DNA of 64,000 bases from Halichondria panicea (Eukaryota > Porifera > Demospongiae > Suberitida > Halichondriidae), in NCBI RefSeq assembly GCF_963675165.1, contig NC_087381.1, positions 4,465,378 through 4,529,377 of the forward strand. Direction: 5' to 3'. Under the pieces are notes generated by a model, which saw nothing but the letters and a program-made list of their open reading frames with translations, did no database searches and had not been told where the DNA came from. This document shows positions 33,361-62,100 of this stretch, in pieces. The position numbers and the translations under genes are program-made. Every line of letters begins with the position of its first letter. The stretch's first letter is position 1.

Positions 33361-34422
33361 ATGAAAGTTCAGTGTCTCAAATATAGTTTATTAACTACAT
33401 GTATATCCGTTGTAGCGGTAATACTACTCAGTGAACGATATTATACATTAGTAATCTGTGGCAGCGTAGTGGTTACCTACTTTGGAAACAGTAGTGTTAA
33501 CGTACACAACAATCAGATTTACTCAGGGAATGCTATTCTCCTACCCCCTGAAGTTGTCTCAGGAGTGAAACTGTTTGTTCTATTCATCGGCTATCCCAGA
33601 AGTGGTCACAGTATTGTTGGGAGTCTGCTGGATGCTCATCCGAATGTCGTGGTCGCACATGAGCTTAACGTTCTTCGTTGGCTCTCACGATTAGATCTAC
33701 AAAATTCAGAAGTGAAGGCTGATCTCTTCAATAAACTGTATGCAAACAGTTTCAACAATGTGTTTAGTGATGGAACAAGAAGCAATAACAAAAAAGGATA
33801 CAATCTCACGATAGAAAACAGTTGGCAAGGACGGTACAGAGAGCGAATTGATGTAATTGGAGACAAAAGGGGTGGTGGAACGTCCAGGATGTACAGAGAT
33901 AATGCTAAGGACTTCAAACTTGCGTACAACCGACTGCATCAGTTTGCTTCCATCCCAATACGTTTCATTCACTGTGTACGTAATCCATTTGACGTCATAT
34001 CTACAATGGTGCTTTACAGTATACAGAAAAAAAGTAATCAAAAAGACTTGGTCCCCATTTCCAGAAAGTCACGTCATGTATACAAAGATGTCAAACAACT
34101 TTCATCAGCTGCAGACAATTTTTTCTCTTTAGCTGATTCTGTTGCTAACATTTCTCGGTCAATAACTTCTGGAGATCGGCTTTTGGAAATTCACAACCAT
34201 GAGTTGGTATCTCATCCTGAAGATACTGTCTTCAAGTTGTGCCAATTTCTGAACATTGATTGCCCAAGAGATCATCTAAAATTGTGTGCAGCAAAAGTGT
34301 TTCCGAAAATATCAAAATCAAGATTTACTGTGGACTGGCCGGAAGAGATGAAGAAAATTGTGCAGAGCCGTCTTGAACTGTATCCCTTTTTTAAGGGTTA
34401 TTCATTTGAAAGTTTAATGTAG
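33361..34422 (+). CDS. Membrane-anchored sulfotransferase B (353 aa)
   Basis: This intronless paralogue of gene A has the same length and about 19 substitutions. It keeps the N-terminal anchor (residues 8-28), the loop FVLFIGYPRSGHSIVG, the 3'-phosphate motif RFIHCVRNPFDVIST and the C-terminal YSFESLM. Differences cluster in residues 100-185 (for example DGTRSNNKKG for DGKRSDNNKG, and GDKRGGGTSRMYRD for GSKNGGGMSRMYRH), a region that could face the acceptor substrate. It lies in block 2 at the position of gene A in block 1 and shares its flanks, so the pair arose by tandem block duplication. The acceptor is unknown. Confidence 0.88.
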   Translation: MKVQCLKYSLLTTCISVVAVILLSERYYTLVICGSVVVTYFGNSSVNVHNNQIYSGNAILLPPEVVSGVKLFVLFIGYPRSGHSIVGSLLDAHPNVVVAHELNVLRWLSRLDLQNSEVKADLFNKLYANSFNNVFSDGTRSNNKKGYNLTIENSWQGRYRERIDVIGDKRGGGTSRMYRDNAKDFKLAYNRLHQFASIPIRFIHCVRNPFDVISTMVLYSIQKKSNQKDLVPISRKSRHVYKDVKQLSSAADNFFSLADSVANISRSITSGDRLLEIHNHELVSHPEDTVFKLCQFLNIDCPRDHLKLCAAKVFPKISKSRFTVDWPEEMKKIVQSRLELYPFFKGYSFESLM

Positions 34423-35844
34423 TATCTTATACGTAACTGCACATAATTATAGCTAGATCTATATTTATATGTGTCATTTATTGTGGCAGTGTTTTAATTG
34501 TTATGTGCATGAGGCAGATTACAATCTGGTCCGGTGGTCCAATGTGAGTGGTGGACCTTGTATTAAAGTACAGTTTTATTGTTCAGTAATTTTGTTTATC
34601 TACATGCTTTTTTTAGGCACCGATTGAACACTGTGTGCATTAATAGTTATGGAATAATTATGTGTTTCTGGTTTAATACAGCCTTGATTTTTTTTTATGC
34701 AGCCACCACGAAATTTGAATGGTGTCACCACTCACTACGATCACCATTAAGCTTATTCCATAATTATTAAGTGTACACCATATTTTCGTTGGTATTAATT
34801 TCACAACTTTAGCAGAATTGGTGATCGTAGTGGATAATTAGAGCCGTTTGTTTCAAAATTGTTGATCATTAATCCAACTGCATGTAGCCGGTATTTTATT
34901 GAGCAATGTATTGTAATTAATGGGAACGAGGCAAGAGACACATTCGTCGCTGAAATAATAATCATCTATAGAAGTGAATGGTATGCATAGAGCCTGACAC
35001 CCAAAGATTGCTCTAGTTAATTGTCACTCTTTTTCTGCCCAAAATCTTATACATTCATGCTTTCAGCAGGCAAAAGTGACGGGGATGGACATGCCACACA
35101 ATGCAAAAAAGCGTTAGGGCAGGGCGTTCGGAATCTGTTTGCTCCAACCACAAACCATTGTTAAATCTTTAGTCTTCATTATAAGGACCATAATTCAGCC
35201 ACGAGTGTCTCTCTGCCTATCCTACGTATGCTTTTGTAGCATTACGTACAGACATTGAAATATAATCCTCTAGTGTTGAGTTTTGCAAAAGAGAAAATAC
35301 TTCTCCATGCCTGCCTAGTGGCTAGTGCTTACAGTACAGATCTATTGTAATAGATGTCTAGCTACATTATTAGGTCTACCATACCCTGAGGGTCAAATTA
35401 TGCTAGTTTAGCGCCCTATTATTTAATTGTGCTAGTTCCTAAAGTCTCCAAAAATTAATTTGCCAAGCCCTACACTCTGTCTCTAGTCTCGCGGACCCAG
35501 ACCCTGAATATATATCGGCTGGTCCACGAGACTACTCTGTCTCAACCCCTAGCCCCCCCCCCATACACCAACGTCACACAACATTTATAAGATTACAGCT
35601 GGACACCAAATATAATTATAGGTTGATTCCATCATAGATTGACCCTATTCAATCTATGATTCCATGCAGATCTTTAATACACACATGCAGTTTTCAATTG
35701 GTGTCAAAATAAAAGAAATTGTATACTCTGCCTCACATCATCACAAGGACACTGTCATTAAATAAATGACACAATGTCATAGATAAATCAATTTTAGCTA
35801 TGTGTAGTTACGTATATAAGTATAAGGTATTTCATTAAACTTTC
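34423..35844. other. Block-2 spacer downstream of gene B
   Basis: It matches 26054-28163 in block 1 but lacks the ~870-bp insertion there; instead about 110 bp of other DNA (35226-35335) sits at the site. It contains the downstream inverted-repeat arm (34644-34724) and a tiny hairpin insertion (35629-35661). No gene is seen. Confidence 0.6.
35629..35661. repeat. 33-bp hairpin insertion unique to block 2
   Basis: Block 1 reads GGTTGATTCCATGCAGATC at this place. Block 2 has ATCATAGATTGA, six bases, TCAATCTATGAT inserted, with ATTCC on both sides. The 12-bp arms are perfect. It looks like a miniature foldback insertion with a 5-bp duplication. Confidence 0.75.
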
Positions 35845-36965
35845 AAATGAATAATCCTTAAAAAAGGGATACAGTTCAAGACGTCTCTGCACAATTTCAT
35901 CTCTTCCGGCCAGTCAACAGTAAATCTTGATCTAGACATTTTCGGAAACACTTTTGCTGCACATAATCTCTTGGGCAATCAATATTCAGAAACTTCACAA
36001 CTTAAAGACAGTCTCTTTCAGGATGAGATACCAACTCATGGTTGTGAATTTCCAAAAGCCGATCTCCAGAAGTTATTGACCGAGAAATGTTAGCAACAGA
36101 ATCAGCTAAAGATAAAAAAAGGTCTACATGCAGCTGATGAATGTTGTTTGACATAATTAATTGAGATCTGGGCCATGCAAGTCTGTGCTCTGTAGTCTGT
36201 ATTCTGTAAAGCACCATTGTAGATAATTATGACGTCAAATGGATTACGTACACAGTGAATGATTAGGATGGAAGCAAACTAATTCAGTCGGTTGTACGCA
36301 AGTTTGAAGTCCTTCTGTACATCCTGGACGTTCCACCACCATTTTTTTGTCTCCAATTACATCACTCTGCTCTCTGTACCGTCCTTGCCAAATTCTTCTA
36401 TTGTGAGATTGTAATCTTTGATGTACTAAACACGTTGAAACTGTTGCATAGAGTTCATTGAAAAGATCAGCCTTCACATCGATAGATTTTGTAGATGTAA
36501 TCGTGAGAGCCAGTTAAGCACATGTGCCACCACAACATTCGGATGAACATCCAACTATACTGTGACCACTTTTGGGGTAGCCGATGAACAGTTTCACTCC
36601 TGAGACAACTTCAGTAGTGGCGTAGGAAGCAATTTCGGGGGGGCTCTATAGTGTTTTGAATGGAAAAAAGTGTGCCTATCTACGGAGTGCAGCTTGATTC
36701 TACTTAATAACCTGGAGAGATGGGGGGCTCAAGCCCCTAGCTGGAGCCCCCCCCCCCCTTCCTAAGCCACTGTTTAGGGGGTAGGGGAGTATAGCATTCC
36801 CTGAGTAAATCTTATGTTTCTGATTGTTGTGTACGTTAGCACTACTGTTTCCAAAGTAAGAGTTTTTGCTAACCACCATGATGCCACAAATTACATATCG
36901 TTCACTGAGTAGTATTACAGCTACAATGGTAATAAATAATTATTTGAGACACTGAACTTTCTATG
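35845..36965 (-). pseudogene. Sulfotransferase pseudogene (psi-4)
   Basis: This block-2 counterpart of psi-2 has the same lost start codon, the same TIR insertion (36615-36772) and many shared frameshifts. Readable pieces include MVLYRIQTTE, SLADSVANISRSITS, GDRLLEIHNHELVSHPE and KADLFNELYATVST. Differences from psi-2 are small indels that arose after the block duplication. Confidence 0.88.
36615..36772. mobile_element. Small TIR insertion in psi-4
   Basis: It is the same element at the same site as 28941-29089 in psi-2, with ends TAGTGGCGTAGGAAG and CTTCCTAAGCCACTG. It therefore predates the block duplication. Confidence 0.75.
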
Positions 36966-37348
36966 AAGTCTTGTTTATCACTGTAATAACATGGAAAAGA
37001 GACAAAGATACCAGGTAGCATGCATGTGTATAGCCTCATCATGTGTACAGTTATGGAATGTGTTTCTGATTACAGCCATAGAAATGTATACTAGAGTCCA
37101 TGCAGCCACGAAATTGAATGGTGATCATAGTGCTGACCTCTTTAATACACACAGTGTTCAATTGGTGCCTAAAAAAAGCATGTAGATTCTAAATAATAAA
37201 TTATTGTTCAAAAACTGAACAATCAAATTGTTAAACTGTACTTACATGTACTCTGCCTCACATAACAATTAAGACGCTGTCACAATAAATTACACATATA
37301 GATATAGATCTATACGTAGCTATAATTATGTGCAGTTACGTTAAGGTA
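36966..37348. other. Flank between psi-4 and gene C
   Basis: It matches 29285-29565 and then the 30560-30622 segment of block 1 directly, without the ~1 kb of repeats found between those in block 1. No gene is seen. Confidence 0.55.
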
Positions 37349-38413
37349 TTACATTAAACTTTCAAATGAATAACCCTTAAAAAAGGGATACAGTTCAAGA
37401 CGGCTCTGCACAATTTTCTTCATCTCTTCCGGCCAGTCCACAGTAAATCTTGATCTTGATATTTTCGGAAACACTTTTGCTGCACACAATTTTAGATAAT
37501 CTCTTGGGCAATCAATGTTCAGAAATTGGCACAACTTGAAGACAGTATCTTCTGGATGAGATACCAACTCATGGTTGTGAATTTCCAAAAGCCGATCTCC
37601 AGAAGTTATTGACTGAGAAATGTTAGCAACAGAATCAGCTAAAGAGAAAAAAAGGTCTGCAGCTGATGAAAGTTGTTGGACGTCTTTGTATACATGACGT
37701 GACTTTCTGGAAATGGGGACCAAGTCTTTTTGAATTCTTGTGCTCTGTATTCTGTAAAGCACCATTGTAGAGATAACGTCAAATGGATTACGTACGCAGT
37801 GAATGAAACGTATTGGGATGGAAGCAAACTGATGCAGTCGGTTGTACGCAAGTTTGAAGTCCTTAGCATTATCTCTGTACATCCTGGACGTTCCACCACC
37901 ATTTTTGTCTCCAATTACATCAATCCGCTCTCTGTACCGTCCTTGCCAACTGTTTTCTATCGTGAGATTGTATCCTTTATTGTTATCGCTTCTTTTTCCA
38001 TCACTAAACACATTGTTAAAACTGTTTGCATAGAGTTCATTGAAGAGATCAGCCTTCACTTCTGAATTTTGTAGATCTAATCGTGAGAGCCAACGAAGAA
38101 CGTTTAGCTCATGTGCCACCACGACATTCGGATGAGCATCCAGCAGACTCCCAACTATACTGTGACCACTCCTGAAGTATCCTATGAATACGACAAACTT
38201 TTTTACTCCAGAAATGACTTCAAGGGATAAGGGAGAATAATGGGCTTTTTCTACTTGATTTATTATTGAATTGCTCTTCGCTTCGAGTGTCTGAATATTG
38301 TTCTCTTTTATGCTAATAGAGGAGTCAGTTGGGTCAGTTCGATAATATTTTAATATCAAAGCGACAGTTAGAATTAAAATAATGATGAGCGATATCTTTG
38401 GGCACGTTCTCAT
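37349..38413 (-). CDS. Membrane-anchored sulfotransferase C (354 aa)
   Basis: This intronless sulfotransferase has the same catalytic part as A, B and psi-3, with FVVFIGYFRSGHSIVG as PAPS loop, RFIHCVRNPFDVIST as 3'-phosphate motif and the end YSFESLM. Its first ~65 residues are unrelated to A and B: MRTCPKISLIIILILTVALI gives a type II anchor, followed by a Ser/Asn-rich stem. Similarity to A and B begins abruptly near SGVKKF and is then very high. The switch suggests a chimeric gene or gene conversion of the 3' two-thirds. A Phe (YFRSG) replaces the Pro of YPRSG in the loop, a difference shared with psi-3. The acceptor is unknown. Confidence 0.87.
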   Translation of the reverse strand: MRTCPKISLIIILILTVALILKYYRTDPTDSSISIKENNIQTLEAKSNSIINQVEKAHYSPLSLEVISGVKKFVVFIGYFRSGHSIVGSLLDAHPNVVVAHELNVLRWLSRLDLQNSEVKADLFNELYANSFNNVFSDGKRSDNNKGYNLTIENSWQGRYRERIDVIGDKNGGGTSRMYRDNAKDFKLAYNRLHQFASIPIRFIHCVRNPFDVISTMVLYRIQSTRIQKDLVPISRKSRHVYKDVQQLSSAADLFFSLADSVANISQSITSGDRLLEIHNHELVSHPEDTVFKLCQFLNIDCPRDYLKLCAAKVFPKISRSRFTVDWPEEMKKIVQSRLELYPFFKGYSFESLM

Positions 38414-38682
38414 CTTAATTCATCGGTTTAGACAGATCTAAGTCTAGTATCTAAATCTGCTAGATACTCCTTCTGCTGGCTAGCCACACATCTATCTCAA
38501 CGTACCTCAGTCTCGATGTTCGCTCTCTAGCTCTCTACTCAGGATTAGCCTCGATTCCAAGCCGCTGAGAAAGGCGGGCTGGAGTCGAGGCTAGCTCAGG
38601 ACTCTCAAAAAGAGGTATTAATCACCACACACAGAAGTTAATTATGCCTCGGTGCACATGCGCAAGCGAGGTGATATTGTGC

Positions 38683-41303: not shown

Positions 41304-44300
41304 CTAACTATCTACCCGTGGATGTTCAGAGCAAATTAAACTGTTTGCCCTGTGAGGGCTTGTGGGGGGGAGGTTATTCGGGAGGGGGGGCTTTGTCTTT
41401 TGTGGGGTGGGTACAGAGTGGATGGGATCATTGATGGGATCCAGGAGGTAGTAAATGTGACCCAAAGGACCAGCCTTCTCTTGCAGATCCTCCTGAGGGG
41501 ACAAGAAATGAGACGATGAATAAGAGATGGTTAAATTAGTTACAGCAACATGTTTATACTGAATGCAGCTTGTTTTATATTGAGCCCTCTCACAGACCAC
41601 CATGCAGAACCGAGTACATTATGCTTAAAAATAAATTATACATGCACGTGATTGTAAACTCCATTGCTATCCAAGTTTTCCACATTCATAGCAAACAACA
41701 GACATAATTATAATACACTTACATCTTGTGAGTTGAAGGTATCCTTCACGGCCCTTGCAGGGGGGGTTGCAGCAGCTGCTTCGGTCTGGGCATGCTCAGT
41801 AACAACATCGTGGGCCACGGCAGAGTGGCTTGAACCTAAGCAATGTGGTGGGCACGAAACATTGTTACAGTAGTAGACATGCATGTACATGTACATGTAC
41901 ATATACACTCCAGGTACAAGTATGTTGTAGTAAAACACTTTCTCGATCTAAAACAGACAGCTACAGCATAATTATGTAAGTTGATGAGAGCACAGTAGAT
42001 GTATGCATGCATGGCCATACAAATACAATACATGCTCGGAATGTTCTTCTCACCAGTGCTACTAGTGAGCTCTCTCCTTGGACTGGCAGGGGAGCTACCC
42101 ACCAAACTTTTCCGTGGAAACTTGGGACTGACTTTTGGAGGTGTGCGGTGCGAGGGTGAAGCACTAGGACTGCTCTGAGAAGGTGAGGGGTTTTCCTCTG
42201 CGTTCGAAGAGGCCGGCTCGGTGACTTGTAACAGACACTCTGTCAAAGATGTGGAAATCATAGTGTAAAACAAATCATGTATAATTGTAGAGTTCTTTGA
42301 CTACCATAGTGCTAGAAAAAATAGTTTTGGCCAATTTTAAAGCTCCAAAAACATTATGCTTTATGCGATTAACTTATTTCCTCGATTAAACGCCACGATT
42401 GTACAGGCCTTGAACTAATTGTGCGATACAATACGATACGATACGATACGATAGCCGCTGGCATAAAATAATAGCATTATAGTTACATTTGTATCACACA
42501 TTAATTTCTAGCACTACGATATCTATCTATACGTGTACATCAACATGGTATAATAACAAGCTACAATTTCTAGCAAACGAGTTACGTACAATGAATGGAA
42601 CCTCTGACATTCGACTTCAAAAGTTTTGTACATGGTTACGAAAGAAACTAGATTTGGAAATAATTAAAGCACTATAGCTGTTTTTGCAAAGAGATCTATC
42701 AAATACGGAGGGGCCTTTCTTGGAAGGTCATTAATCGGAGATTCACAACACATAACACACACATGTACATGTATGAAGGTGTACAGCACATGTACTAACC
42801 ATTCTCTTGTTGACCTGATGACTTCTGCTCCTTGTCTTGTTGAGTAGTGTTTGATGTCTGATTGGTCGTTGGAGATGAACTGATGACACTGTTCCTGTCA
42901 TCACATACCAGAGTGCCTTCTTTCACCTGTCGAACCAAATCCTCCTGCAAAAAAGGTGGTGTGTGTGTGTGTGTGTTAAAATTGCTGTGTAGTGTACCCC
43001 TAGATACAATGTACATGCTGTATTTATTATTTTGAAACGGAAATGCTCTGAATTCCAACCACTGTACAGGAGAACTCTTTTACACATGAATATGTACATT
43101 ACAACTTTGGGGAAATATATTTGTGGCAGAGGTGGCTTTTGTTAAGGGGTTACAACAAACTGTTAGTTTGGGACTGGATACCTAGACTACTGCTGTTCAA
43201 AGAAGCTCACCATTTGATCTCTGAGTTGAGAGAAAGTTGGTCTCTCCTCAGGTTGGTGTTGGGTACAGTCCAAAACCATCTCATAGCTACAGTGAATACA
43301 CACAATTATGAGATACAGTAGCTATAGAGAGAAGGGACAGTACATGTACGTACGTTATATATAGACAGTATTCATGTGTGGATATTATTCGTTCTCTTTG
43401 GCAAAAGACCAGTTTAATTAATTAACTAATAAAAATAATATTATAATTAATTATATAATTATCATTAACTAATAATGTTATTAATTGCATTAATATTCGT
43501 GTCCATTGTTGCTACATGTGTACAATGTATACTCTTCATTACTGCAGACCACGCATGGAACAAGGGGCTTTACACACACACACACACACTTACACTCGTC
43601 CGGGACAAGGCTTTGGTCTGGACAGTTTAAGGCCCCTCTCCTCGATCTGTTCCAGCAATTCCCTGTTCTCGACACCCGGGTATGGAGAACGTCCCAGTGA
43701 CATAATCTCCCAGACCAGCACACCATAGCTCCTGTGATGAGTGTGTGTGTGAGGGGGAGGCCGGGGCTTATGTGCAGTGGGTGTGTGTAGCAGTCATTGT
43801 ATGTATAACTATATACTACAATATTTTGCAAATAAGCCAATTAAATCAGCAGAAAATTAGACATTTTGCGATCAGTCAAGGATCGCTGATGTCATTCGAA
43901 TACTGAGCACTTATACTGCAGTAAATACCGTACATGTATTACTAGCAGGTGAAAAACCTTTGCGAATGAGCCAAATCAGCAGAAAATTTGACCCTTTGCG
44001 ATCTAACTATTGCGTTCTGGCAAGGATCGTGTGTATTTACTTAATATTTGCGGATTTATTGTTGCGAATTGATCGACCATCGCAAAGTTCGCAAATGTTT
44101 GATGCTCGCAAAACATTCTAGTAATACGGTAAACACGTTGTTACAGTATATAGCCAGTATATAGCAGTGCACAAAACAATAAAACAAGGTTGCAACTGCG
44201 GTAAAGGGTGGTCAGAGTAAGAACTACTTACCACACATCAGACTTGGTCGTGAATATAAAGTACATGAGACTCTCCAGTGCCATCCACTTGGCCGGAAGT

Positions 44301-46673
44301 GGACGTGGTTTGGATCCTTGGGTCTTGTACATGTCCGAATAGAGATGTCTACAGAAACATGGGCTCATTATTAAAAGCATAATAATAGTGGCACTGTACA
44401 ACTGACCTTGAGAGTCCAAAGTCTGCGACCTTTGTCAGAAGGTTCTTGTTCTCATCCTCCCTCACCATAATGTTGCGAGCAGCTAGGTCACGATGGACAC
44501 AGTTACTGCAGTATACATTTATGAGCAACTGTAACCACATGTGAATTGTAGTTACTGCGTGTGATAAAAAGGGGTTAGTAAGCTAGGCATGATCAACATG
44601 TTTTCACATCTGGTGCCAGTTCATTTGTTAAAACAACAGTCTTTATACAGAGGGTGAAGTACATGTACGGCCCTATTCCCACACAAACTTACAGTACGTT
44701 GGCGAGATAGTCCATAGCATCAGCCACCTGGTAGGCAATGTCCAGCTGTGTCAGGAGAGGCATGAATGGACGAGAGTCTTTGAGCACGCCCAGTAGGTCA
44801 CCATGGCTCATGTACTCCTCTACCAGCAGCAAGGGGTAGTCCCTGCAATTAAGGGAAAATAGGTATAGACTATGAACGTCAATAAGGAGCGGAATGGGCC
44901 TGCATAGGAACGATGCTAAGGAAATACTTTGTGGGTATACTGTTCCTACAATGGCCACACTATAGTGACCTTCGTAAAGAGATCACCTCTCTTTTACATG
45001 TAAGACCCACATAGTGGTACTGTCCTCAATGTTCACACTATAATTGATACTAACTCACAATGTGCACACAGCGATGAGTTTGACAATTCTGGGATGATCC
45101 ACTTTGGACATCTCCTTTGCCTCTCTCAAGAAGTCCTCCATCTGTTGACTGTGATGACCGTGGCGAGCTATGAAATCACTCACTACGTGTGTGTGTGTGT
45201 GTGTGTGTGAGTGAGTGAGTGTGGTACATGTACCATGTACTTACGAGGCACATACATGTACATACATGTACAGTCTATATGTACAGTCTACATGTATATG
45301 CTTCACCAGTGTGCAAAGAGATTCTACAGTATAAACCCCTCGAGATAACCAGTCTGTTGAATGTACATTTATCACCGCTATATATTTTTACACGTACACC
45401 ACATGCAATAGCAAGAGCACACTCAGAACTACAGAATGTCACGTTGAAATCAGGGCACTAAATGCAAATCCTGTTTTACAGGCTAAGACCATGCAGCTCT
45501 ATTAATTTTTCAAAGGTTTCTACTAGCCATAGCATGACAAACCCACACTCACGTCTGAGCTGTTTGACGGCTACCTCCATTGTCTTGTTCCCATGGCCTG
45601 GCAGTCCAGTCGCCTCCGCTAGGAATACCTGTAGGTAATACACGTGTATACATAGTTGTGTGCTACAGTGTGTAATACGGTATACCCTAACTATTATATC
45701 GACTCATAAAGCTAGATTAGACACATTGTACGTACATCTCCGAATGCTCCTTCTCCGATCATCTGTTTGTGGTCGAGGTTCTTGCGTGGGACCTGCAGGT
45801 GGCGGAGACAGTCCTGGATCGGCTTAAACAACGGCGACATCGGAGAGAGCAGACCCGGCTGTGAGGATGTGTGGCGTGTGATGTTGAGTGTGCGTGGGTG
45901 CATGGTGAAAATAAAATAACCATTTAGATCCCACTTTTCATTAAGACCTTGCCTCAGGTAAAGCACAGCTAATATAGTATGAGAAGATGAGGGACTGGTT
46001 GCTCTGAAGTTCCCTTATTCGGACACTGTACTGTACACATTGTATGTGCATGTAAACATACTGTACTTTTCTGACCTGGTGAGGAGCATCGTCGAATTCG
46101 TCTGGTGATGGAGAGCGTGGTTCAGGACACGTACTCACCTGTGTCATGTTCGCACTGTTGTCGATACGCCTCAGGCCATATCTGTGCAGGGAGGAATGAA
46201 AGACAGTAAAATTGAATACAGTGTACAAACATGAACTACAGCCACGTAAAAATTAATTTTGTAAGAGCACAGAACACAACTGTGAAATACATGTTATATG
46301 ATATACACTGTACATGCAGTACATGTACCTTGAAATGTACAAGCAAACTAGAGTAACATACTGCATGTATACACATGTAAACCCCTTCTATAATGGACAC
46401 CATTTTGGGCAGCAATTGAAGTCTTATTCTGTACACAAAATGCTCATTAGGGAACTCTCCCCCTCCTCTCCACACACACCCACCTTGCGGCTGTTCTAAA
46501 ATTGACTAGTTTCATATCGTGCAGGTCCAACAAGAAGGGCATGGGGGAGGGAAGACAAAGAGTAAGCTCCGCCCACTGGGAGCCACTATCGTACATGTCC
46601 TCTATCTGGATGTTGGTTTCCCTCTCAAATGGATGCCAAAGATCCTTGTCAACATTGCCCCACTCCCAGAAAG

Positions 46674-46722
<49 letters not shown>

Positions 46723-49700
46723 GCGTGTGCGTGTGTGTGTTTAAGTTTAATACAATTACATGGACATGTATACAGAGGAACTGGTATTACAAGCTTAAAT
46801 TATATTATATGATAATACACGTACACCACCTGCAACTGGATTGTACATGCATGTCTGTACTACTGTCATATAATTATAGCTGCAGTGATACATTGTAACA
46901 TTGTTTATAATACAGCAATGTATACTGAAAGTAGATTGTTGTAAAACACTCAACGTAATGTTTTCGTATCTTCCAAACACATACTGCAGAAACTCACTGG
47001 TAGGTCCATCATCTTGCTGTGAGTGACCTCGGGCCTATCCTCAATAAACACAGTCCTCTTTATACGATGGGTCACCTGAAAAGGGGGGCAAAGATGACAA
47101 CCAGTCAAACCATTGACTACATGTATTGTATAATTATAAGAAGTCATAGACTGCGCATGCGTACATAACTTAAACACACACACCACGGTAAGCTTTATTG
47201 TACATAATTATATAGAAATGTACGTACATGTATATACATTACATAATATAGTACAATACATGCATGTACATGTACAGTACACCAGTGCTCAAAACTATTG
47301 GTCTCGATATTAATTTATATAATATGTACAATGTAATCATGTTGACACAGTCAATCCCCACAAACAACCGTCCCCCACAAACAACGGTGTGCAGCTATAT
47401 AAACACACTGTCTAACTGTGTACACAAATACCAAATACATTATTTCCACTCATAATACGCCACGGCACGTGTAGAGTTCAATGATAACTTTGAAGTTTGT
47501 ACATGTACCAGAAGCAGAGCCCTACGTTCACGTCTAATTATTTTACACTACCACTTTCAAGTTTACTACACATGATGACGGTGCACAGTCAGGACTGCAT
47601 CCAGGATTTTGGATCAGGGGGGGGGCGAATTGGGCAATTTAAAAATGTAGGAGGGGCGAAGTCATCAGAATTATAGCAGTACAATCGCCCCCCCCCCTCA
47701 ATGCAGCCGTGACAGTAATATTAAAGTACCCCTCGTATTTAAGTACCTACAGTTACAAACTGTATATTATTTATATATATTTTTATGTACATGCAACTGT
47801 TCGAATAAGGACCGCTACGTGTTTCAAAACAAGACTCTTCTATTACGATATGAAACAACCGGCTATCTATAGACAATATTACTTACTTTTGTGCGTGGGT
47901 GTGATCGTGTCATGTTGTTAAGGTTATAGTGGAAGGCCATCTGAGCTTCACCCAGGTAGAACGAGTTATCACTCTCTGAGTAGTGCGCCTCAATTCTGAA
48001 TGAGTCACCGTCTGGGAGTGCATTCCATAGTCCACCATCGTAGTATTCCCAAATCACCTGACACGTGGGAGGGCATATACATGTAGTCAGGAACTAATCA
48101 CATGTAGTACAGACGTTTATTTAACAATATACTAACCAAATTTATTGCATGTACATTTATTACACGTACATATATAATTATACATAATTATTATGCACAA
48201 TGTGGAATTATGTACAATTAAGGTACAGGAATGTATGTTATTATGCATGCATGCATATACAGCAAATTAGAGTGTACCTTTTCTCTCTTGTATTGTATGC
48301 TGAGTAGCTCACAGAGCACCTTCAGCCAGGTGGTCACATCAACACTACAATACCGTGGAGTTGATAACACAGGTACATGTACATAAAGTGTCAGTCTCGA
48401 TACCAGCTAGTACATGTGTATACCTGGCAGCTATAATAATTGTACACTACAGTAGTTACATGCCGGTGTGCAAAAATCAATCTTACTCTTTGTCACAGTG
48501 TAGCAATAGCCGCTTGCTGCCTTTGCACTTTAGACTGATAGCATACGGGTGTTTAGGGTGGTCGATCACCTTGGCAACCTCTCTAATTACGTGTACTTCA
48601 ATTTTGTCTTTCTTCAATACTTTTGTCTCCTTCCTGTTGTCCTGGTAAAAAGAGATGGCCGGTTTGGCTGATGACTGATGAAGGACAGCCCACCCTCTAC
48701 CAAGTTCTTTATCCGGCTGTGTGTGTGTGTGTGTACGGTGTGAGTGCATGCATGTGGGCATAAATACACGTACAATGTACAGGAGGCTTAATTTGTTGTA
48801 TGGGGCTCATTGCTTTATTGTTTCAAATTGAGCCAATGGGTCGAGACCTACATGTACATGTACATTACCTTGTGGATCGATCGAGGCTTTAATTGATATC
48901 GAAGCCACAGTAATTCAGGCTTTATATGCATGTGTGTATTCATGTGCTTATATGCACATACAAACAACTAGAGGGAAACTCAGCACAGGAAGTGGGTGCA
49001 TGTGAATACAGTAAACAAGCATACTCCCCATCCAACAGTAGACACACCATGGAGCCCATTATACGTCAGGGGGTAGTGCAATCAAAACAATTAAGTAAAC
49101 ACAACAGTTGTCGTAAATAGCAACCATTCTAAGGGCTATTTGTTTACAGTGTATGGTCTAGCTACAATAAATAGAAGGACCTCCAGAGATTTGTAAAGCA
49201 TCATAGAGAGACGTACAGTATTGAGTTGGACTCACTGCCAGTTTGGTGCTGAAGAGGCCCGTCTTCTTGCCTTTGAAGAGGATCAGCCAACCCTCTTTCA
49301 GTACCACCTTGCCGTCTAAGGTTGCTATAGAACCAGAGAAAAAGTCAGAGTAATTTCTGTATTCATAATACTCTCACCAAAGACAAAAGACACACACACA
49401 TGTATGTTAATTTGGATCGAGTGAACAGAAACATTTAGTACACAATATAAACAACACATGCTGTCAGACTTCACACGCTGTCAGACTTCAAATATGGGCT
49501 TTACAGGCAGAACAAGCGAATTAGTCACACTCAATTCCTACTGTATGAACATGCAAGCTCATCATTGGCACATTGTGTAACGGGAATGTGAACAATGCCA
49601 CAGGCCATTACGACTAATCATGTTAGTATTACCAGGAGTTGTAATCATTGTAACATCATTATGGCTACAGTACAAAAATGTGCGTCTATCGTATTCACTT

Positions 49701-52700
49701 TTCTAGAGACACGGATATTGATTATATTGTACATGTAGTGTACAGAGTACATGGTCTACAAAACAGCTAGTTACCTAATACACGTACAAATGTACATATG
49801 CATGCAGGGATAGTGTTTATAATTTATACACGTATATATATATATACGCAAATGTACACACAAGTCCATTAGAAGAAAGTGTGGTTTTTTGTGTGTGGAC
49901 TTTTACCCTAGTACAGTAGCGGTCAAAATAAAGTACCTGTACCGTTTACGTAGTGCGTCCGTAGTACGCTGGTACGTTGCAAAATAAACGCTAAAAATAC
50001 GCTCAAGATACGCTATGTACCGTTGCGTTTTTTTTCTAATCAACCGTTGTTAAATTTTTCTTTCGGCCACACCCATGCAGCTCTGCACGCAGCTAGCTAG
50101 CTAGATTTTTTGCAGCAGTTAGCTGTTAGATATTATAGCTAGCTAGCTAGCGTTTTCTAACCTTGTAGAACAGAGATAGGACTCTATAGAGACTGCAGAC
50201 ATCCTTTTTGATGAGAAGGTTAAAGAACTTGTGAATGGTGCGTTTTATGTCTTTGTTGTAGATCTAGAGCTAGACTTACAGCTACAATGTAGACATAGCC
50301 ATAGCATAGCTAAGTAGCTAGACTAGCTACAATACTCGAGATGACTAGCTCTTTGTTCGTTTTCTAAAACTTTTCGGCAAACGTACTTGCAACGTGCAAC
50401 GGTAATTAGCAACGGTACGGTAAATTCAACGGTTTTGATACGGTGTCAAAACGGAAACGCTTTGAACGTACTACGGACGTACTACGGACGTACTACGTAA
50501 ACGGAACGGGTACTTTATTTTGACCGCTACTGTACTTAGACACCTGTGTTCTCAGAAAGACTGAACAAGAACTATTAAACTGTAATACGTTCTCAAAATT
50601 GAGGAAGAAGCTTATAAATTCATCGTACCACATTCTGTTGCAATTAATACTTTTTGGCAAAACAACTACATGTAGTTGCAATTACGTACGTACATGTAGA
50701 TTTGAATTACATTGTTAAACAATTTCACAGTGCACCCATAAAACCATCTTGTACATAATTATGTGTATAGTATACGCATGTAATAAATATATGACACCAA
50801 GGTGCATGTATTAAATATCAACCACTGTCAGCAAAAGTTATAATAGTAGATGCATGTACACCACAACATAGCACACACACACCACGAACACATGTCGTGT
50901 CATTGTTGCCAAGCGTGTGGCTTTGTTTAGCACTAAATGAGTGGGAGGAACCCAGCCACAGCCCTGTTACTATGACAACATGCAAACACACAAACAGTCA
51001 CCACACTGGTTAGAAATCAGTTTTGTATGTGTTAATTATAATGTTACCATGTAGCATAAATTTGCACAGCACAATTTAACCCTGTACAAGCTCCAATGAA
51101 ATTGTGGCGGTTAATTGAGGAAATAATAAATAAAAAATCGCATGAAACGCATAATTTTATGCTCGCACATATTTCTAGCTAACTACGGTTAAATGAATTT
51201 TTAATTGGGTATACATTAATTTTTTGATATTGAAAATTATGGGGTGGTGTGTTTAGATTAAGAGACAATTCCTGATAGTCAACAGTGAAGTTTTCCCAAA
51301 TCTAGTCGGTTTTTTTTCTATAGCTACATGTACATCCATGTACATTATTTTAAAACTCAAAAAAGAAATGGTGGAGGCCGGGGTGTTCAAAGTCACTTGA
51401 GAGACTTGCTTTACGATAGATGACATACTTGCATCTGTGCTCAAATTTCAAGCCAATCATAACAGACACAAGAAATGAGCATTACTAAATTCCACACAGA
51501 GGGCCCCCATGTCTGAGAGTATAGACTATAATTATTCTGACCCATTGCCACACTCTGCTGACGCTATACTCTTCCCTGTTAGCTTAGGTCTTGTACTTCA
51601 GTTGCTAGGAAACACGCACACCATTGAAATGTATTGAGTAATTGCCCATTAAGTAAAAAAAATGATTGAACTCTCTTAAGTAAGGAAATAATTTGTGCAA
51701 GTACTAATAATCTTACAGTAATACAAACACCATTGTTTACAGTGGCACAACTACGTAAATAAATTAATGGATATAGACATACTCTAATAATGCATGTTAA
51801 ATACTCGATCCACACAATTAATACATGTACATGGATTACTGATACTCATAGGAAGGGCCACATTAATTCTGTACGTTAAAACTTCAACAAAAGATACATC
51901 TCACGCACACATACATACTGCATGTATGTGAAGCTGATTAATTCATAAAAATTTTCCTGCTCAGACAATAATATTATACTTCGACGTTTAAAAGCTTCTT
52001 TTAAGAGTCACTATTGCCATGATTAACACGGCAAGGCACATCATAAAACTGAAACTGGTACAATACCAAATATCAAAACAACCATCAAAGCAATAATTAT
52101 GTATAGATCGATACACAATGATTTGTCTATGTTACTTGCAATAGTATTTCGGACACTTCTTTTCAACAAAGCGAGAAACACAAATGATTACTATAACAAG
52201 ATTGAGTATCTATGTATAATTATAGTGACTGTAGTCCACAAAAGAAGTAGCTCTGAAGTGGTTACTACAAAAGAGATGGCATGTACTATTCATGAGGTGG
52301 TTAGAGCATAGAAGAGGGATTGGAAACGGAAGTGATTCACGTGATGTTTTACAATGAAGTCTACGTAGTGGCTCTGGGACCATCCGTGTATCTCCTTATA
52401 ACTCCTGCAAAAGCCCGGGAAACTTATTGTGTCCAAAGCATACATCTCAGAGCTACCCCCATTACTGAATCACATGCCCCCTGATAGTAGGTATCAATTG
52501 GAAACTTATAATCTCGATTGTCGTGAAGTAGCTAGAGGTACACAGAGCGCTTTTTTATGCTTGTGTTCCTATAGTACCTTTGATATAGCTAAGGCTTTGT
52601 AACTAAATAGTGTCCTGTGTCCCAAATGGCCTCAAGTATTAGAGAAAGTTGATGTTTAGCAGCAGAACTGCTCGTGGACTTCTTACAGAGAGCAAAACAA

Positions 52701-54222
52701 TTCTCATGAATTATTCATGTTTAGCCCTTGTGTTAAAAAGTAAGCCTCGATTAAAACCACGGAGATACATGGATGGTACTTCGAGGGTACTTCCGTTTCC
52801 AATCCCTCTTCTACTCTATTTATGGTTAGAGTGAGTGTGCACAAATTCCTTGCATCCTTCTGTGTACAATCCCTCTGTGTACACACACAGCCTGCATCTA
52901 AGGATTACTTCTCTCACTCAGCTTACATCATTGACCGCCCTGAAGACACCATCTCTCTAGTGAGACCACTGTATCACCTCTCTATCAATTGAGACTATAC
53001 CCATTACTGTCACTACAATTATTGCAATACTCTCAATTGTCACAGTTCCAAAAAGACAAATTTGTTCACACTGCACACATACTGTTGCTGATGAATGCAA
53101 TACCTAGACACGCCTAGTAGTCTCATCATAATTTTATTAGGAAATGTTGTGCAGTGTGCACTTAAGACACAATGGGAACATGAATACACACCTTCTATTC
53201 GAGAAGAACAACACTACATTTATTTGATTGCATACAGTCTATAAATTACTGTACACATGTAGAAACTTCAAGAGGGTTGCAACAATTCGTTTAGTAGTAG
53301 GGTAACAAATAATTATTTATCCTGCTCATGTTACAAGAACAATAAAGCAGCAATTAATTATATAAAGGTTCACTAACGTATTTAGCACAATCTTTGATTA
53401 CTTGACAAACCACATACCAATACATTCATAACAATGCCCGAATTATAGTTTATGGCTACAATCAATACAAATTGACACACCATAAAAAGCCACATCAAAC
53501 AAAGGATGCACATGATCTTACAACTACTACTCTGCCAAACGGAAATAAATGCTTTGGCTCACATGCATAGAAAAATTTAGAGCATACTTTATTCAGGTAA
53601 TGAATAGTACATGCATGAAACTTCAAAATGGATAGTAACAAGCTCGGGCACAGCTGGCTAGACAATTGACACAAACTCAAGTAGGCAATGCATACGGTAC
53701 AGTGAGTAATTTGAACTAGTTACATACTGCAGTAATAGGATACATGTACGTACATGTACCATGCCATTAAAACTATACATTTCCTGTGTTTTCATTGAAA
53801 ATAGATTCTGATCCCTTTCCGACTAACAAGCTCTGCTTACAATACTAGAGAAAAATAGAAACCAATATTTCAGAAACTGGCGTATAACTATGGGAAAGAG
53901 CAGATAATCACACCCCAAAACTTACGAAACACATACGACAACATTAACACTTAGGGGGCCGGGGGACATCTACAAAACATCAGTCGGATACACAGTATCG
54001 AATGTAGGCGTGGTAAAAAAGGGGATAGATAATAGGCATCGCTATAATAATTGTTAAGAAGTGTTTCCACATCCAGTGCATGCCATGTGTATCTCCAACA
54101 TGATCCAAAATATTATAGAAAACTCCATCTAAAGATCTAACCTGAGTTTAGCTACATCATCATTGCTGGAACTGTGATTTCTAGAGCAGTGCATAGAAAC
54201 CTGATATCTACTCACCTGACAT
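41304..54222 (-). CDS. PH-WWE-WWE tyrosine kinase (824 aa)
   Basis: Twenty exons: 54222-54216, 49324-49236, 48716-48487, 48344-48278, 48057-47887, 47075-46998, 46674-46484, 46181-46076, 45858-45736, 45628-45553, 45182-45059, 44842-44693, 44505-44407, 44348-44232, 43731-43594, 43286-43211, 42944-42800, 42239-42054, 41835-41723 and 41492-41304. All phases agree (2475 nt). Residues 10-131 form a PH domain ([12 protein letters not shown] to [11 protein letters not shown]). Residues 132-213 are WWE-1 ([15 protein letters not shown] to RIKRT). Residues 215-290 are WWE-2 ([15 protein letters not shown] to YGLRRID). The kinase (about 345-614) has [12 protein letters not shown] (Lys376), HRDLAARN (475-482), DFG (499-501), Tyr507/Tyr511 in the activation loop, [10 protein letters not shown] and ERPTF, so it should be active. 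The tail to 824 is Ser/Pro-rich and ends near GHIYYLLDP. There is no signal peptide or membrane segment, so it is a cytoplasmic kinase. Confidence 0.9.
42427..42453. repeat. (ATACG)5 microsatellite
   Basis: A short pentanucleotide array in the kinase-gene intron between exons 42944-42800 and 42239-42054. Confidence 0.8.
43926..44132. mobile_element. Small TIR element in kinase intron
   Basis: The opposed ends TACCGTACATGTATTACTAG and CTAGTAATACGGTA enclose about 200 bp with repeated TTGCGA/TCGCAA motifs. The DNA just before (43838-43890, CAGCAGAAAATTAGACATTT) resembles its interior (CAGCAGAAAATTTGACCCTT). Confidence 0.6.
46675..46741. repeat. (GT)n tract at the WWE-2 exon acceptor
   Basis: On the minus strand this is a (CA)n run that ends in the AG acceptor of exon 46674-46484, taking the place of a normal pyrimidine tract. 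Confidence 0.9.
49914..50532. mobile_element. Tc1/mariner-type MITE (619 bp)
   Basis: It starts CAGTAGCGGTCAAAATAAAG and ends CTTTATTTTGACCGCTACTG, with TA on both sides (49912-49913 and 50533-50534). GTAGTACGT-type motifs repeat inside both ends. No coding capacity is seen. Confidence 0.88.
52303..52818. mobile_element. TIR element (~516 bp) in kinase intron 1
   Basis: The ends are inverted: AGAAGAGGGATTGGAAACGG near 52310 and CCGTTTCCAATCCCTCTTCT near 52810, with weaker pairing inward (CCATCCGTGTATCTCC and GGAGATACATGGATGG). Confidence 0.75.
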
Positions 54223-54534: not shown

Positions 54535-56150
54535 ATGAAAAGCTCTAAAGGTAAAACACCAGCCAACGGGTCAAGACCTATCAAGAAAGGTTGTCCAACG
54601 CCGGGCAAGCCACCTAAAGCTTCAAGACCAAAGGATCCTGTTGAAGTCAGTTGCTATACTTCTGTAGCTCATCAGTACAGTGTGTAGCTAGTATCGCCAC
54701 AGGCTTATAAATGCTTGCTCTGTACACACACCACAGAGTGTTGAATATTAAAACACTGATCACCACGGTACACTGTTACATACTACACTACTGTGATAAA
54801 TATTACACTACATTCTCTAAATAGGTGTACTGTCGAGTGCGACCATTAAAAGATGATGAACTGGAGTCGTGTGTGGAGGTTCCTGAAGACACACTGCTCA
54901 AAGTCACGCCCCCTGAGTGCTCTATCGCTTTCAAGAATGGGCACAGAAATGCTGTGAGTTTAATTCGCAATACTCTTTTACTTGAAATACTTCACGGCTA
55001 AGCTTCCTGATCTCTTAACCGTATCAATGCGCTCTGTATAGTGTTTCCTTTGAAGTTTCATACAGTACTTGTTCATCTAGGTACTATACATGTATGTACG
55101 GACGGTATACATGTACAGTAGTGACGTTTGATATTTTGTTCAGCACGCTCACAAGTTCAAGCATGTGTTCACGGAGGGGACTGATCAAACGGATATCTTT
55201 GACAGACTGGGCTTCCCTCTTGTGGAGGACCTCCTACAGGGAAAGAACGGTATGCCAGTAAAAGTAGTGGAGTAAAAACGAATCACCAAACCTTAGGCCT
55301 TGATCAAAATTACTGAAATGAGGCAGAATAATAACTATTTACATGTACATGCACCTGCGCATGTATCTGTTGTCATTGACAGGCAACCTTATTGATAGCT
55401 AGATCATACGTACGTATACAGTACAGTGAATGTCTACTGTTGTCACCTCATGCAGCTGGGTCACTCTCTATAATAATTATTGCCAGGTTAATGGTCTCAG
55501 AAGTGTCCATAGGAGATGTTTCGATCTAGCTATAAAGTGCATGTCAATGTGCATGTATGTTAGCTGGCCACCTCTTCATTACAGCATTTGTTAGTCAGTG
55601 CAGGGGTGACTGCTAGAGTTAGTCAGTGCAGTGGTGACTGCTAGAGTTAGTCAGTGCAGGGGTGACTGCTAGAGTTAGTCAGTGCAGGGGTGACTGCTAG
55701 AGTTAGTCAGTGCAGGGGTGACTACTGGAGATGTACTGTACCTAGGATAGGCAGATAGTTTGACACATAAGTCGTATATATACATGTACATAAGTCGTAT
55801 ATACACATGTACATGACTTGTGTGGTATGTACTGTCGTACACAGTATATAGTAGTGTGTTGTACACTGGCCCCTGTGTGTAATCTGTAATCTTGTTTCTT
55901 GCTTCCTAGGGCTACTATTTGCCTATGGCATAACCAACTCTGGCAAGACGTACACTATGAACGGGGAACCTGACCAAGCCGGTATTCTACCGAGGAGTCT
56001 AGACATCATTTTCAACAGCATAGCAGACGTCCAAGCTTTCAAGTTTGTGTTTCGCCCTGACAATACTAACGGGTTTGACCTATTCACTGAAGAAGAGGCT
56101 AACACAGAGGCTCAAAAGAGCAAGCCCAAGAAGATCAGTCCTAGAATGAG

Positions 56151-56181
<31 letters not shown>

Positions 56182-59100
56182 CGCGCTGGTCTGTGTTCCC
56201 TTTCTTTCCTTTTACCCTAAAGAGAAATCTACATTAAATTTACTTACGCATTTGTTTGTATGATAGTCACACTCAATCCTTCTCCCCTCATCCCTCAGAT
56301 CTGAGATGCCCGACTATGGGGACCTGCTCAGGATCCCAGAACCCCGTAAAGTAGAGACAGGTGTAGATGAGGACAGCAACTACTCTGTTTTCATCTCCTA
56401 TGTGGAAATCTACAACAATTTCATCTATGACCTCCTGGAGGATAGGAACTTGGATGCCATTAAACCAAGGTCTGTGTGTACAAGATACGTGTAAGGATCA
56501 TGCATGTACATGCACATTTACTTACTACAGTCTAAGTAGCCAGGGTTACTGGCAGCCCTCTCAGATAAGCATTTATACATTCATGACGTTTACCATCTTT
56601 AGCACTGTGATGAGCTTAACCATCTCTGAAGCTGAGCTTGATTATACATGGCATGTACAATTGAGTTGACTATGCCACCATCCCCCACAGTGCCCCCACC
56701 TCTAGAATCCTTCGTGAGGACTCATCCCGCAACATGTATGTTAGTGGAGCCACAGAGGTGGAGGTCAAGAGTACAGAGGAGGCATTTGAAGTTCTGTATC
56801 GCGGTCAGAAGATGCGTAGAGTAGCACACACCCAGTTGAACCAAGAGAGCAGTCGCAGTCACTCTGTGTTCACCGTTAAACTAGTACAGGCCCCACTTGA
56901 CCACACTGGCAAGGATGTGCTGCAGGTAAGAATGGTGTGTTGTGTGCACGACAGTATGTACAGTGTATGTGACATGCAACTTAAGGTATGAAAAAATAGT
57001 TTTAAATCAGATCCCTTGTATTGAGAGACCACAATAAAACTGTTGTACAATTACTGTACGTTGATGATGATCTACATGTATAATCTCTTTTTCATGTTTG
57101 TTGTATATAATTATTATACACACATGTACCTGCTTCCCCGCTTTGCAGGACAAGTCCAAGGTAGTCTTCTCACAGCTGTCTCTGGTCGATCTGGCCGGCT
57201 CGGAGCGCACCTCTCGTACTAATAGCCATGGCGATAGACTTAAAGAGGCTGGAAACATCAACAAGGATTTGATGGTGCTCCGGACATGCATGGAGACAAT
57301 CAGAGAGAACCAGAGCAGCAATGTCACCAAGGTACACGTACACGTACATGTATATATAGTAGAGTGTACTCTCTTGTTGACCTAGTTGGCAATACTATAA
57401 CAAATGAAAGCACCGCAGGTGCTGATGCCTCGGTGGAGATGCCAAAGCTACATAACATAAAGAGCTTTTATGCACATGATAAACAATTTAATTTTGCAAA
57501 AACTCAGAGAGTGGGTAATGATTGACCATTATTGTTGTTAAAAACGATGGATGCCAAAAGTTTAAGTCTAAAATTAATGGCTGCATTAGCAGAGCCTTGC
57601 AGCTCTCTTCTCACTCTTGCAGCTACCAATAGCTAGCGTTCTAGTGCAGAGCTAACTACTAAGTAGAGTAGCAACGCTCGGTAAACAAGTTTGGTTACGT
57701 GCTCTTCTGAAAAGGCTGATGGCATTCCAAGTAAGCAAACTAGGCATAACTCGAGAACGAAGCATTATTTTGCAAATCCACGAATTAAAATCCAAGTAAA
57801 CATGACTAGAAGCCTATAGAAACTCTTACTTGCACTTGATTCATCCTTTAGCAGCTGTAGCAGTCTACACAGACACACAAACACACTACCGTATACCTCG
57901 CTTGCGCATGCGCACCGAGGCATAAACACTATCAGGGCAGCCACGGGTATAGTAGTCGTTTGGTTTTGGTTTTGTTTGTGATATGTGAGTCTGCTTACCT
58001 GGTTGCCATATAGCACTGCGTTTCGGATAGCCTTCACACAACAAGTTATTAGTTTTAATAGTGGCAGATTACGATGTACATACAAATGTATTTGCAGCTG
58101 AATTGATCCCTTACCGGTCTCTATGAATTGTAGGTTGTTGCTTCTTTACTATTGTATCCTCTGGTTTTTATACATGTAGATCTTGTCAACAGCCGAGGGT
58201 TAGCACTTCAGTACATGCTCTAATTAATTTTGTTATTGTATGCAATTTGCTTTAATTCCTTGATGTACATGTATACTGTGCGCATTTTCTATTGCATAAT
58301 TATATGTACATTTACATTGTACTGTATGCATGTGATCATGAGTTCAGATGTGATACATTGCACACATGCAGGTACATGTACATGCATTCTACCAAAATTA
58401 ATTGTAGTGCACTTCAATAAGACAATTCTTTTGTTGTTACTATGACAAATACGTTGTAGACGAATGCTGACTGTGTACATGTACTTCTTATCTCCCTCAG
58501 ATCGTTCCGTATCGAGACTCTAAACTGACCCATTTGTTCAGGAACTACTTTGACGGAGTGGGCAAGGTTCGAATGGTGGTGTGCATCAGCCCCCGCTCAG
58601 AGGACTACGACGAGAGCATACAGGTGATGAGGTTCGCAGAAGTCACACAGGAGGTCGTCGTAGACCGACCCGAGACTGTCAGGTGAGGGAAGATTTGGAT
58701 GACATGTGTACAGTGCATTGTGTGTGTACATCATTTATGTTACCTTCGTCACTCTCTATGTAAGTTTTACAACCTGTACGTGCCACAATTATTACATGTA
58801 CAGTCAGTGTGCTAACAGTATGAACTATGCGTACATGTACATGTATTCTCTCCCTATAGACCAAACACTGGTCTGGCTCCAGGACGTAAGAGGGCCTACA
58901 TGCTGTACAAAGCAGCACTGACGGAGGCTTCCATGACCGATGGTCTGGGAGAAGAGTGTGATACACCCCCTGCTGTGGCCCCTCACCCCTATACCCTGGC
59001 TCTGGGGGTGCTCTCAATACAGAAGGTGGGTGTTCTAGATACCAGGTTTTCAATCAAGTACATACAGTGTGTAAGCAATGTTCTCTATGTACTATCATAA

Positions 59101-62100
59101 GGCCTTATGCGCACAACAGTACGTGACAGTACCTCACCTCATGTTGTAGTATTTGCTGGAAGACTGCTCAGTGGAGAGTTTCTCTGAGTTCAAGGCCACT
59201 CTAGAGAAGAGGTCTAAAATCAGACTGGAGCTTATCGAAGATCTGCACACGAAACGTATGTTAACCTACAGTGTACATGTGGCAGAGCTGCATGAATATA
59301 ATTACGGTGTACTGGTATAATTATACACTTGTACATGTACGTACTGTGGCGTGTCTATTCTAACTGGTTTGTTTACATGTAGTGTGCATGTATGTTTCGT
59401 TTTCTACATTAACCCTCCTCAAACACACACACACACATCTGTGAGTAGAGTCCTCATTCAAAACTGATCTGGCCACTCTTGAGGCGGAGGTGGTAGCGTT
59501 GAGGGCCGGGGCTGTTGAGCACAGGGCGTTGGTGAAGGGACGAGACAAACTGATCAAGGATAACCAGGAGCTCAGGGGCATCATCTCAGCACAGGACGAA
59601 CAGGTACGTGTACATTACTTGTACTTGTACAAAATAGTGGAGTGTATTAATTATATTTATGCATGTACTTGTACTTGCACAAGAGTGAGTGTATATGTAC
59701 TTGTACATGTACAGACTGTACTTCCGACATGCGTGCACGAATCATTACAAGTACAGTGCTTTGATCTCATTGCGGTTACATGATAACATCTAGGTCAATG
59801 CACTAGCACTTGTAGTGATTCGTGCATGCATGTCAGACCTCCTCAGGGTTGCACTGTATCAAACTACATACAGTACATGCATGTACATACGTGTACCTGT
59901 ACCTGTACCTTCATGCATCCCATGTATATATAGACTGTATTATTATATATGTATAGACACATGCTGAGTACTCTAGTACTGTATACTGACTCCTCCTTCC
60001 CTCCAGAATGCCCAGCTGACTGCCGATTTGGAGCAGTCCTCAACCAATGAGGCTGTCCTCAGTAGGCAGGTGAGAGAGCTGCAACAAGAACTGATCAGAG
60101 CCAACCAGCAGAGACATAAACTGACCAAGACTACCCAGATGTACGAGGTTGACAAACAAGAACTGGTGCATGAAGTAAGAAAATATTTACATATCTGAAT
60201 GTTTACCCTAATTTTGTACTTGGTTAGACCATACTTGGAGCAACATTAATATGTACGTACATGCACTTCACCTCCGATACCAGCACCTTCTCATAGTGTG
60301 TAGTGTTGCTATCTTGTTTCCTCCTCCCCCAGCTGGTAGTTGAGCGGGAGCAGCTTGTGAAGACTCAAAAGGCCACTGTTGCCATGGAAGGCCATGTACG
60401 CCAAGAGAGGGAGCGTTTTGAGAAACTAGCTCGTCAGATGAAGAACAAAGAGAAGGACTTGGCCGTCAAGAGTGACCAATTGAGACAGGTCAAAGAAGTG
60501 ATCAAGAACTCTCCTCTGGTCTCTGTGAGGTCCACTCTCAAAGAGTCTAACACACCCATTAGCAAATCAGAGAGAAAGGTACATGTCACGTATAATGTGC
60601 GAAAGTACAGTGTACAACTGTCAGAGTTTCATCTAGTGGGGAGCAGAGAGTGAACCTCCCTTCCCCCCCCCCCCCACAATCACATCATAATTATTACCCC
60701 AATATTATACAGTATACATGTAGTACTACTGTACGTACGTACGTACAAGTAGAAAGTACAATACAATGTATCCGTGGCGCCCGCTCATCCAGGGGCCATG
60801 CTGTGAAGTCCTCGCTAATTGATTTGATCAGCAGCGAGGCAAGCCTTCACTCCTAGCTACATGCAGTTAAAGACACATATTATAAAGCATTATATCCCGT
60901 TGCTATGTTGTTGCCAAGTGCAATATGAAGCATATTGCACTGCTGAAAAGTCATATTGCACTGACCACAAAACGCCCCTCTGGCATAATTAAATTAAATA
61001 TTGTATCATGAGAAATAATAAGTATCAAAGTAAGTCCAGCCATGCATGAATGTTCAGCACTGCTTGAGTTTCTTCTTTGCAACCATGCAGGTTTTAAAAT
61101 CGTCCCAGGCTCATTTTGTGAAGATTCTGTGATCCTAGACCTAGTCCTCCACTTCTTGATGCACGGTCAATTCTGGCTTCATCATAGCACTAGAAGCGGC
61201 TCTTTTTGCAGGGGGCTTGAGCTGTTTTGCAGCAGTGTAGAGGCGAGCTTCTTTGGCTTGGTTGTGATATACCGAGGATAGTGCTAGTGGAGGGGGCTGT
61301 TCGAGCAGCAGTTACACTGAGTAGTATAGTGGGGTGTGGCTGTTTCTTCGCAGCAGTAAATGGGGTGGGGCTGTTTCTTTGCAGCAGTAGAGGGGTGGGG
61401 CTGTTTTGCAGCACCAGAAGTGGGGTGGGGTTGTTTTGCAGTGGTTTCAGCGTTGGAACTCCAACAATTTTGTGTCAAGCCATTCGTCTGTCATGCCAAT
61501 CTTATACGCTGCATATACTGGCGTCTAGGAGAGAGAAGAGATGGAGCTGTGTCTAGAGTTGTCTTTGTCATCTTTTTGTGCAGTTTATATTGTGTTACTA
61601 AGACAGTGTTATGTTGCTATGCCCTCGGGATATAAACTAGTTATTACACGTGCACTCGGGATGCATGGAATATATTGCACTCAGCCCTCGGGGCTTACGC
61701 CCTCGTGCTTCAGTGCAATATATTCCATACATCCCTTGTGCCCGTGTTATAACTATAACTTATATTTTCTTGACCGTTGTCATTATAATTACATGAAAAA
61801 AACATAATAATTTCAGAATACTCGCCACAAGAGATGGAGTATTCAGTTTCTGAATCAAAGTCAGAATCACTATACTGTAACTATAATATTATCTAGAGCT
61901 ATTATAAATTTAATCAATGGGTATATAGTCAATAAAGTGGGCACGGTCAACAATTTTGCGGCACGCTACTTCACGTAAAATCCTTCATCCTCAAAGTGTT
62001 TATCCTAAATGAAAGCCGACTGTAACTGTAACAATGTACATGTTGTATGTTGTTCAGTATACATTTGGCATGATTCCAATTTCACCTCTTGATTTTGTTT

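Follow-up and report, generated by a model that had tools for sequence, protein, structure and literature searches.

Does a single sponge gene encode a tyrosine kinase that carries a PH domain and two WWE domains, and if so, what would a WWE pair do in such a protein? The question comes from a sequence-only reading of the window, the whole 64,000-nucleotide stretch of DNA analysed here, in which twenty exons were joined in frame into a protein with the order PH – WWE – WWE – tyrosine kinase – Ser/Pro tail. We located all twenty exons, and the joined frame is open until its terminal stop. The earlier reading had not stated the strand, which is minus; the gene is laid out as follows:

54222 to 41304, minus strand: kinase gene, 20 exons
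54216..54222, minus strand: exon 1, with the start codon and 7 coding bases; the least certain exon
48278..49324, minus strand: exons 2-4 (49324-49236, 48716-48487, 48344-48278), PH domain, aa 11-122 (PF00169)
46998..48057, minus strand: exons 5-6 (48057-47887, 47075-46998), carrying WWE-1 (starting at aa 132) and a linker, with a phase-0 intron on either side
46484..46674, minus strand: exon 7, WWE-2, aa 216-278 (Pfam, 35.5 bits alone)
46076..46181, minus strand: exon 8, end of WWE-2 and linker, placed by the exon chain; donor read from sequence
43211..45858, minus strand: exons 9-16, tyrosine kinase domain, aa 343-613 (PK_Tyr_Ser-Thr, Pfam, 273 bits)
41304..42944, minus strand: exons 17-20, Ser/Pro-rich tail, aa 615-824, with the stop codon ending at 41304

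The joined reading frame is 2475 nt long and encodes 824 residues with a single stop, at its end, and all 19 introns are of the GT-AG type. Intron 1 (4891 bases) is preceded by just the 7 coding bases of exon 1. In exon 8, an alternative in-frame donor is possible after base 46139, and its use would remove 21 residues from the linker. Judged from its sequence, the PH-WWE-WWE-kinase gene structure is real, and we infer a single mRNA from the exon chain. A KIF23/MKLP1-like mitotic kinesin gene (54535-62837, plus strand), identified by Kinesin and MKLP1_Arf_bdg matches, lies head-to-head with the kinase gene. Because the two divergent start codons are 312 bases apart, the genes may share a promoter region. 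Elsewhere in the window, positions 24917-38419 contain several single-exon ORFs that closely resemble one another and lie on both strands; the one scanned (24917-26050) matches sulfotransferase families. A search of the full 64,000 nt with Rfam gave no match at the gathering threshold.

We scanned the 824-residue product with Pfam at its curated cut-offs, which are 25.1 bits for PH and 21.1 bits for WWE (PF02825). The PH domain scores 31.5 bits, and WWE scores 47 bits over the whole protein, in two stretches. When the stretches are scanned singly, both exceed the WWE cut-off, WWE-2 comfortably and WWE-1 narrowly (22.4 against 21.1 bits). With PH, both WWE domains and the kinase all above their Pfam cut-offs, the proposed domain order holds. 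No SH2 or SH3 match was found in the product by Pfam up to E 1, nor was there a Pfam match to RING or DTC. The tail is 15.2% Ser and 12.4% Pro, and holds four PxxP motifs as well as Tyr776 and Tyr777. By hydropathy there is no evident membrane span in the 824 residues (the highest 19-residue mean, 1.46, falls within the kinase domain), and the N-terminus is the PH domain, with no ectodomain. In a PDB search with the PH part, the top matches were GRK2 (E 0.0025) and DOCK9 (E 0.0036); the DOK-type PH domain that visual inspection had suggested is unsupported.

A genome-wide search with the WWE profile, which does not depend on the exon model, recovered the WWE-2 exon at C5:4511869-4512051 (33.9 bits, E 5.0e-6). 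WWE-1, which an intron divides and which is the weaker of the two, was not recovered by this search. When the WWE pair was searched against the PDB, WWE chains were matched by the WWE-2 part only, with DTX1 the best match (E 4.8e-4) and TRIP12 the second (E 0.0029). Structure prediction on single exons gave a mean pLDDT of 66.1 for the WWE-1 exon and 57.3 for the WWE-2 exon; since these models are poor, the WWE fold is assigned from sequence.

Passages of one study (PMC11269756) describe how the WWE domains of RNF146, HUWE1, TRIP12 and DTX1 hold their ligand: the adenine is bound by two hydrogen bonds from a conserved Gln and by the stacking of an aromatic residue, and the proximal phosphate is held by a Tyr together with an Arg. 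The contact residues given there for HUWE1 are Trp1619, Tyr1658, Gln1667 and Arg1676. At the aligned aromatic, Tyr, Gln and Arg positions, WWE-1 of the kinase gene has Y, F, R and H, and WWE-2 has W, F, L and Y; the Arg column, which comes after an indel, is less certain than the other three. The RNF146 contacts, which we take to be Tyr144, Gln153 and Arg163, agree with the aligned sequence and with the HUWE1 residues. Of the four ligand contacts, the stacking aromatic alone is kept in both domains. It had been noted from the letters that the position reading MVQ in RNF146 reads MTR in WWE-1 and MKL in WWE-2, as is also seen in our alignment, and that PAR binding was uncertain. That doubt was right and goes further than the Gln, with Tyr and Arg also missing from both domains. 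Because three of the four conserved contacts are missing in each, classical RNF146-style PAR reading has probably been lost by both WWE domains, and the pair probably binds something other than ADP-ribose.

The profile search gave 12 further WWE matches in the genome, at eight loci. Six of these loci are PARP-associated, by which we mean that a PARP-domain match shares the frame of the WWE match or lies on its strand no more than ~5 kb away. The remaining two are RNF146-like (E 2.5e-24 to RNF146, with a RING read by eye) and Deltex-like (with RING and DTC-like stretches read by eye). The WWE pair analysed here sits in a tyrosine kinase. The conserved Gln is present in 9 of the 12 matches and is replaced by Glu in the other three, and all four ligand contacts are kept in seven. 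The first Deltex-like WWE appears to keep the four contacts too, read by eye across its intron. The Glu-bearing matches, at C2:201296, C2:224571 and C2:2161334, are PARP-associated and each is without three of the four contacts, so contact loss is not unique to the kinase gene. A genome search with the WWE pair as query returned four matches, all inside the kinase gene. Among the kinase matches listed (150 of 947 candidates scored), the closest approach to any of the eight other loci is 185 kb, compared with 1.4 kb for WWE-2, and within that set no other WWE match lies near any kinase match. We considered whether the kinase WWE domains share an intron with the Deltex-like gene and found no support for this: the positions are near one another, but the phases differ (0 and 2 versus 1). 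Ten exon-level Wnt matches were also found in the genome, a sign of an animal source, as Wnt genes are not known outside animals. Collections of viral and prokaryotic contigs gave 19 and 21 pattern matches, respectively, none confirmed as a relative, and have little bearing on animals.

The sequence-only reading also held that the kinase motifs are intact. The catalytic residues are in place–Lys376, Glu400, Asp477 of HRD (in the motif HRDLAARN) and Asp499 of DFG–and by this catalytic-residue criterion the tyrosine kinase is predicted to be active. Its activation loop has two tyrosines, Tyr507 and Tyr511. In a PDB search with the kinase domain, a two-kinase EGFR chain came first by summed score, followed by a reconstructed Src-Abl ancestor (207 bits, the highest single-domain score), ROS (201 bits) and RET (201 bits). 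For comparison, two other kinases of this genome match their namesakes more strongly, a Src-like one at 413 bits (to Src) and a MuSK-like one at 305 bits (to MuSK). In a tree of 15 rows, Tec kinases not among them, the kinase groups with ROS, RET, MuSK and three kinases of the genome, apart from the Src-type rows; support for the fork on the ROS/RET/MuSK side is 92/96, which is under the strict mark that 2 of the 12 inner branches reach. The kinase domain is 44.8% identical to the Src-Abl ancestor, 44.1% to a Src-like kinase of the genome, and 40.7-42.9% to ROS, RET and MuSK. The signals of kinship in these sequences appear to conflict, the tree pointing to ROS/RET/MuSK and the top identity to the Src-Abl ancestor. 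Elsewhere in the genome, at C11:6.01 Mb, C15:4.01 Mb and C5:2.46 Mb, there are single-exon tyrosine-kinase-like genes in which HRD reads HRN, HRG or HRR, making them probable pseudokinases by sequence, and on C15 several more kinase matches cluster closely, among the matches listed.

Two alternatives concern what the locus produces. In intron 8, an in-frame run of 52 open codons leads straight into exon 9 and includes an ATG 15 codons ahead of that exon, so a kinase-only transcript could start there, and the model could have joined two adjacent genes, one for a PH-WWE-WWE protein and one for a separate tyrosine kinase starting in or near exon 9. Against this, introns 7 and 8, which lead from WWE-2 to the kinase, are 302 and 217 bases long, leaving exons 8 and 9 just 217 bases apart; neither has a poly(A) signal (AATAAA or ATTAAA) on the coding strand, and no stop interrupts the frame from PH through the tail. 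We consider it unlikely that two genes were joined in the model. Splicing offers another way to part the WWE domains from the kinase. The four introns that separate modules, those preceding exons 5, 7, 9 and 17, all have phase 0, compared to 4 of the 15 elsewhere in the gene (chance p ~0.018, for a test picked after the phases were seen), a pattern that fits a gene assembled from shuffled modules. Because phase-0 introns flank each WWE cassette, either could be skipped cleanly and in frame (WWE-1, exons 5-6, 249 nt; WWE-2, exons 7-8, 297 nt), and exon 8 has two possible donors. One kinase gene could thus be spliced with and without the cassettes, although we give little credence to the proposal that a WWE-less form is the main product.

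Other alternatives concern what the WWE pair binds. It had been suggested that the protein could couple ADP-ribose cues to phosphotyrosine signalling; the domain order and the intact kinase on which this suggestion was built are upheld, but the coupling itself is weakened because both WWE domains miss three of the four contacts. The pair might still read ADP-ribose, through an altered pocket or contacts outside it, and so recruit or switch the kinase at PARylated targets. The stacking aromatic is kept, as Tyr in WWE-1 and Trp in WWE-2, and PAR signalling is likely to be present, because the genome has 56 exon-level PARP-domain matches and the RNF146-like gene. Moreover, a passage of PMC11269756 states, on the basis of a HUWE1 mutant, that PAR potency is influenced by what lies beyond the pocket. 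What makes this reading improbable in our view is that both domains lack the adenine-contacting Gln as well as the two residues, Tyr and Arg, that bind the proximal phosphate, in a genome where most other WWE matches keep the Gln. There is also a small chance that the diverged pair senses a new ligand, such as a modified nucleotide, a PAR geometry or ankyrin repeats, and in this way controls the tyrosine kinase; the WWE pair of Deltex binds the ankyrin repeats of Notch. If this were true, the protein would connect ADP-ribosylation, ubiquitin or Notch-ankyrin cues directly with phosphotyrosine signalling.

We favor, with moderate confidence, the interpretation that one gene encodes a soluble, non-receptor PH-WWE-WWE-kinase-tail protein that arose by domain shuffling, with WWE domains that are protein-binding or autoregulatory and have probably lost PAR reading. 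Domain shuffling is already known from the tyrosine kinases of early animals and their relatives. In such a protein, the PH domain would direct targeting to membranes or to other proteins, and the tandem WWE would occupy the position that SH3-SH2 has in Tec and Src kinases and act there by binding proteins or by autoregulation. Clustering would allow the kinase to phosphorylate its own activation-loop residues Tyr507 and Tyr511, and the PxxP- and Ser-rich tail could serve for docking of partners. If it is expressed as modelled, the gene would be a natural test of a WWE pair from which most of the ADP-ribose pocket has been lost, and likewise of the control of an animal cytosolic tyrosine kinase that has neither SH2 nor SH3.

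The sequence-only reading knew of no described tyrosine kinase with a WWE domain, and we found none in the open-access literature, which was searched mostly by title and abstract and, for the papers cited next, in main text or passages. The word 'WWE' is absent from the main texts of a study of the holozoan tyrosine kinome (PMC8662651), of the S. rosetta genome paper (PMC4054682) and of PMC5560861. In the first of these, SH3-SH2-kinase and PH-SH3-SH2-kinase are named as the domain orders whose conservation goes back furthest. Passages of PMC4245714 pair WWE with PARPs, including in the sponge Amphimedon, and contain no WWE paired with a kinase domain. Relative to the open-access literature searched, the order PH-WWE-WWE-kinase is new.

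The sponge protein resembles several known systems in part. It shares with RNF146, HUWE1 and TRIP12 a WWE domain recognized by sequence profile, TRIP12 being the second PDB match to the pair, but their conserved Gln, Tyr and Arg are missing from its WWE domains. Its tandem WWE with a short linker resembles that of Deltex, and DTX1 is the best PDB match, via the WWE-2 part only. DTX1, however, is an E3 ligase that keeps the four contacts in both WWE domains where the sponge kinase keeps one. A Deltex protein combines tandem WWE with RING and DTC, which the sponge kinase does not, and the genome has a separate Deltex-like gene. The catalytic domain is 41-43% identical to those of the receptor kinases ROS, RET and MuSK and falls on the same side of the tree fork, whereas the protein as a whole is without the ectodomain and membrane span of receptor tyrosine kinases. 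Src/Abl kinases are approached through the reconstructed Src-Abl ancestor, which has the top identity and the 207-bit PDB match, although in the tree the kinase domain does not group with the Src-type rows. What distinguishes the sponge protein from both Src and Tec kinases is that it has neither SH2 nor SH3. Like the Tec family (PH-SH3-SH2-kinase), it has an N-terminal PH domain, a C-terminal tyrosine kinase and no evident membrane span, but between PH and kinase, with no match to SH3 or SH2, it carries two WWE domains.
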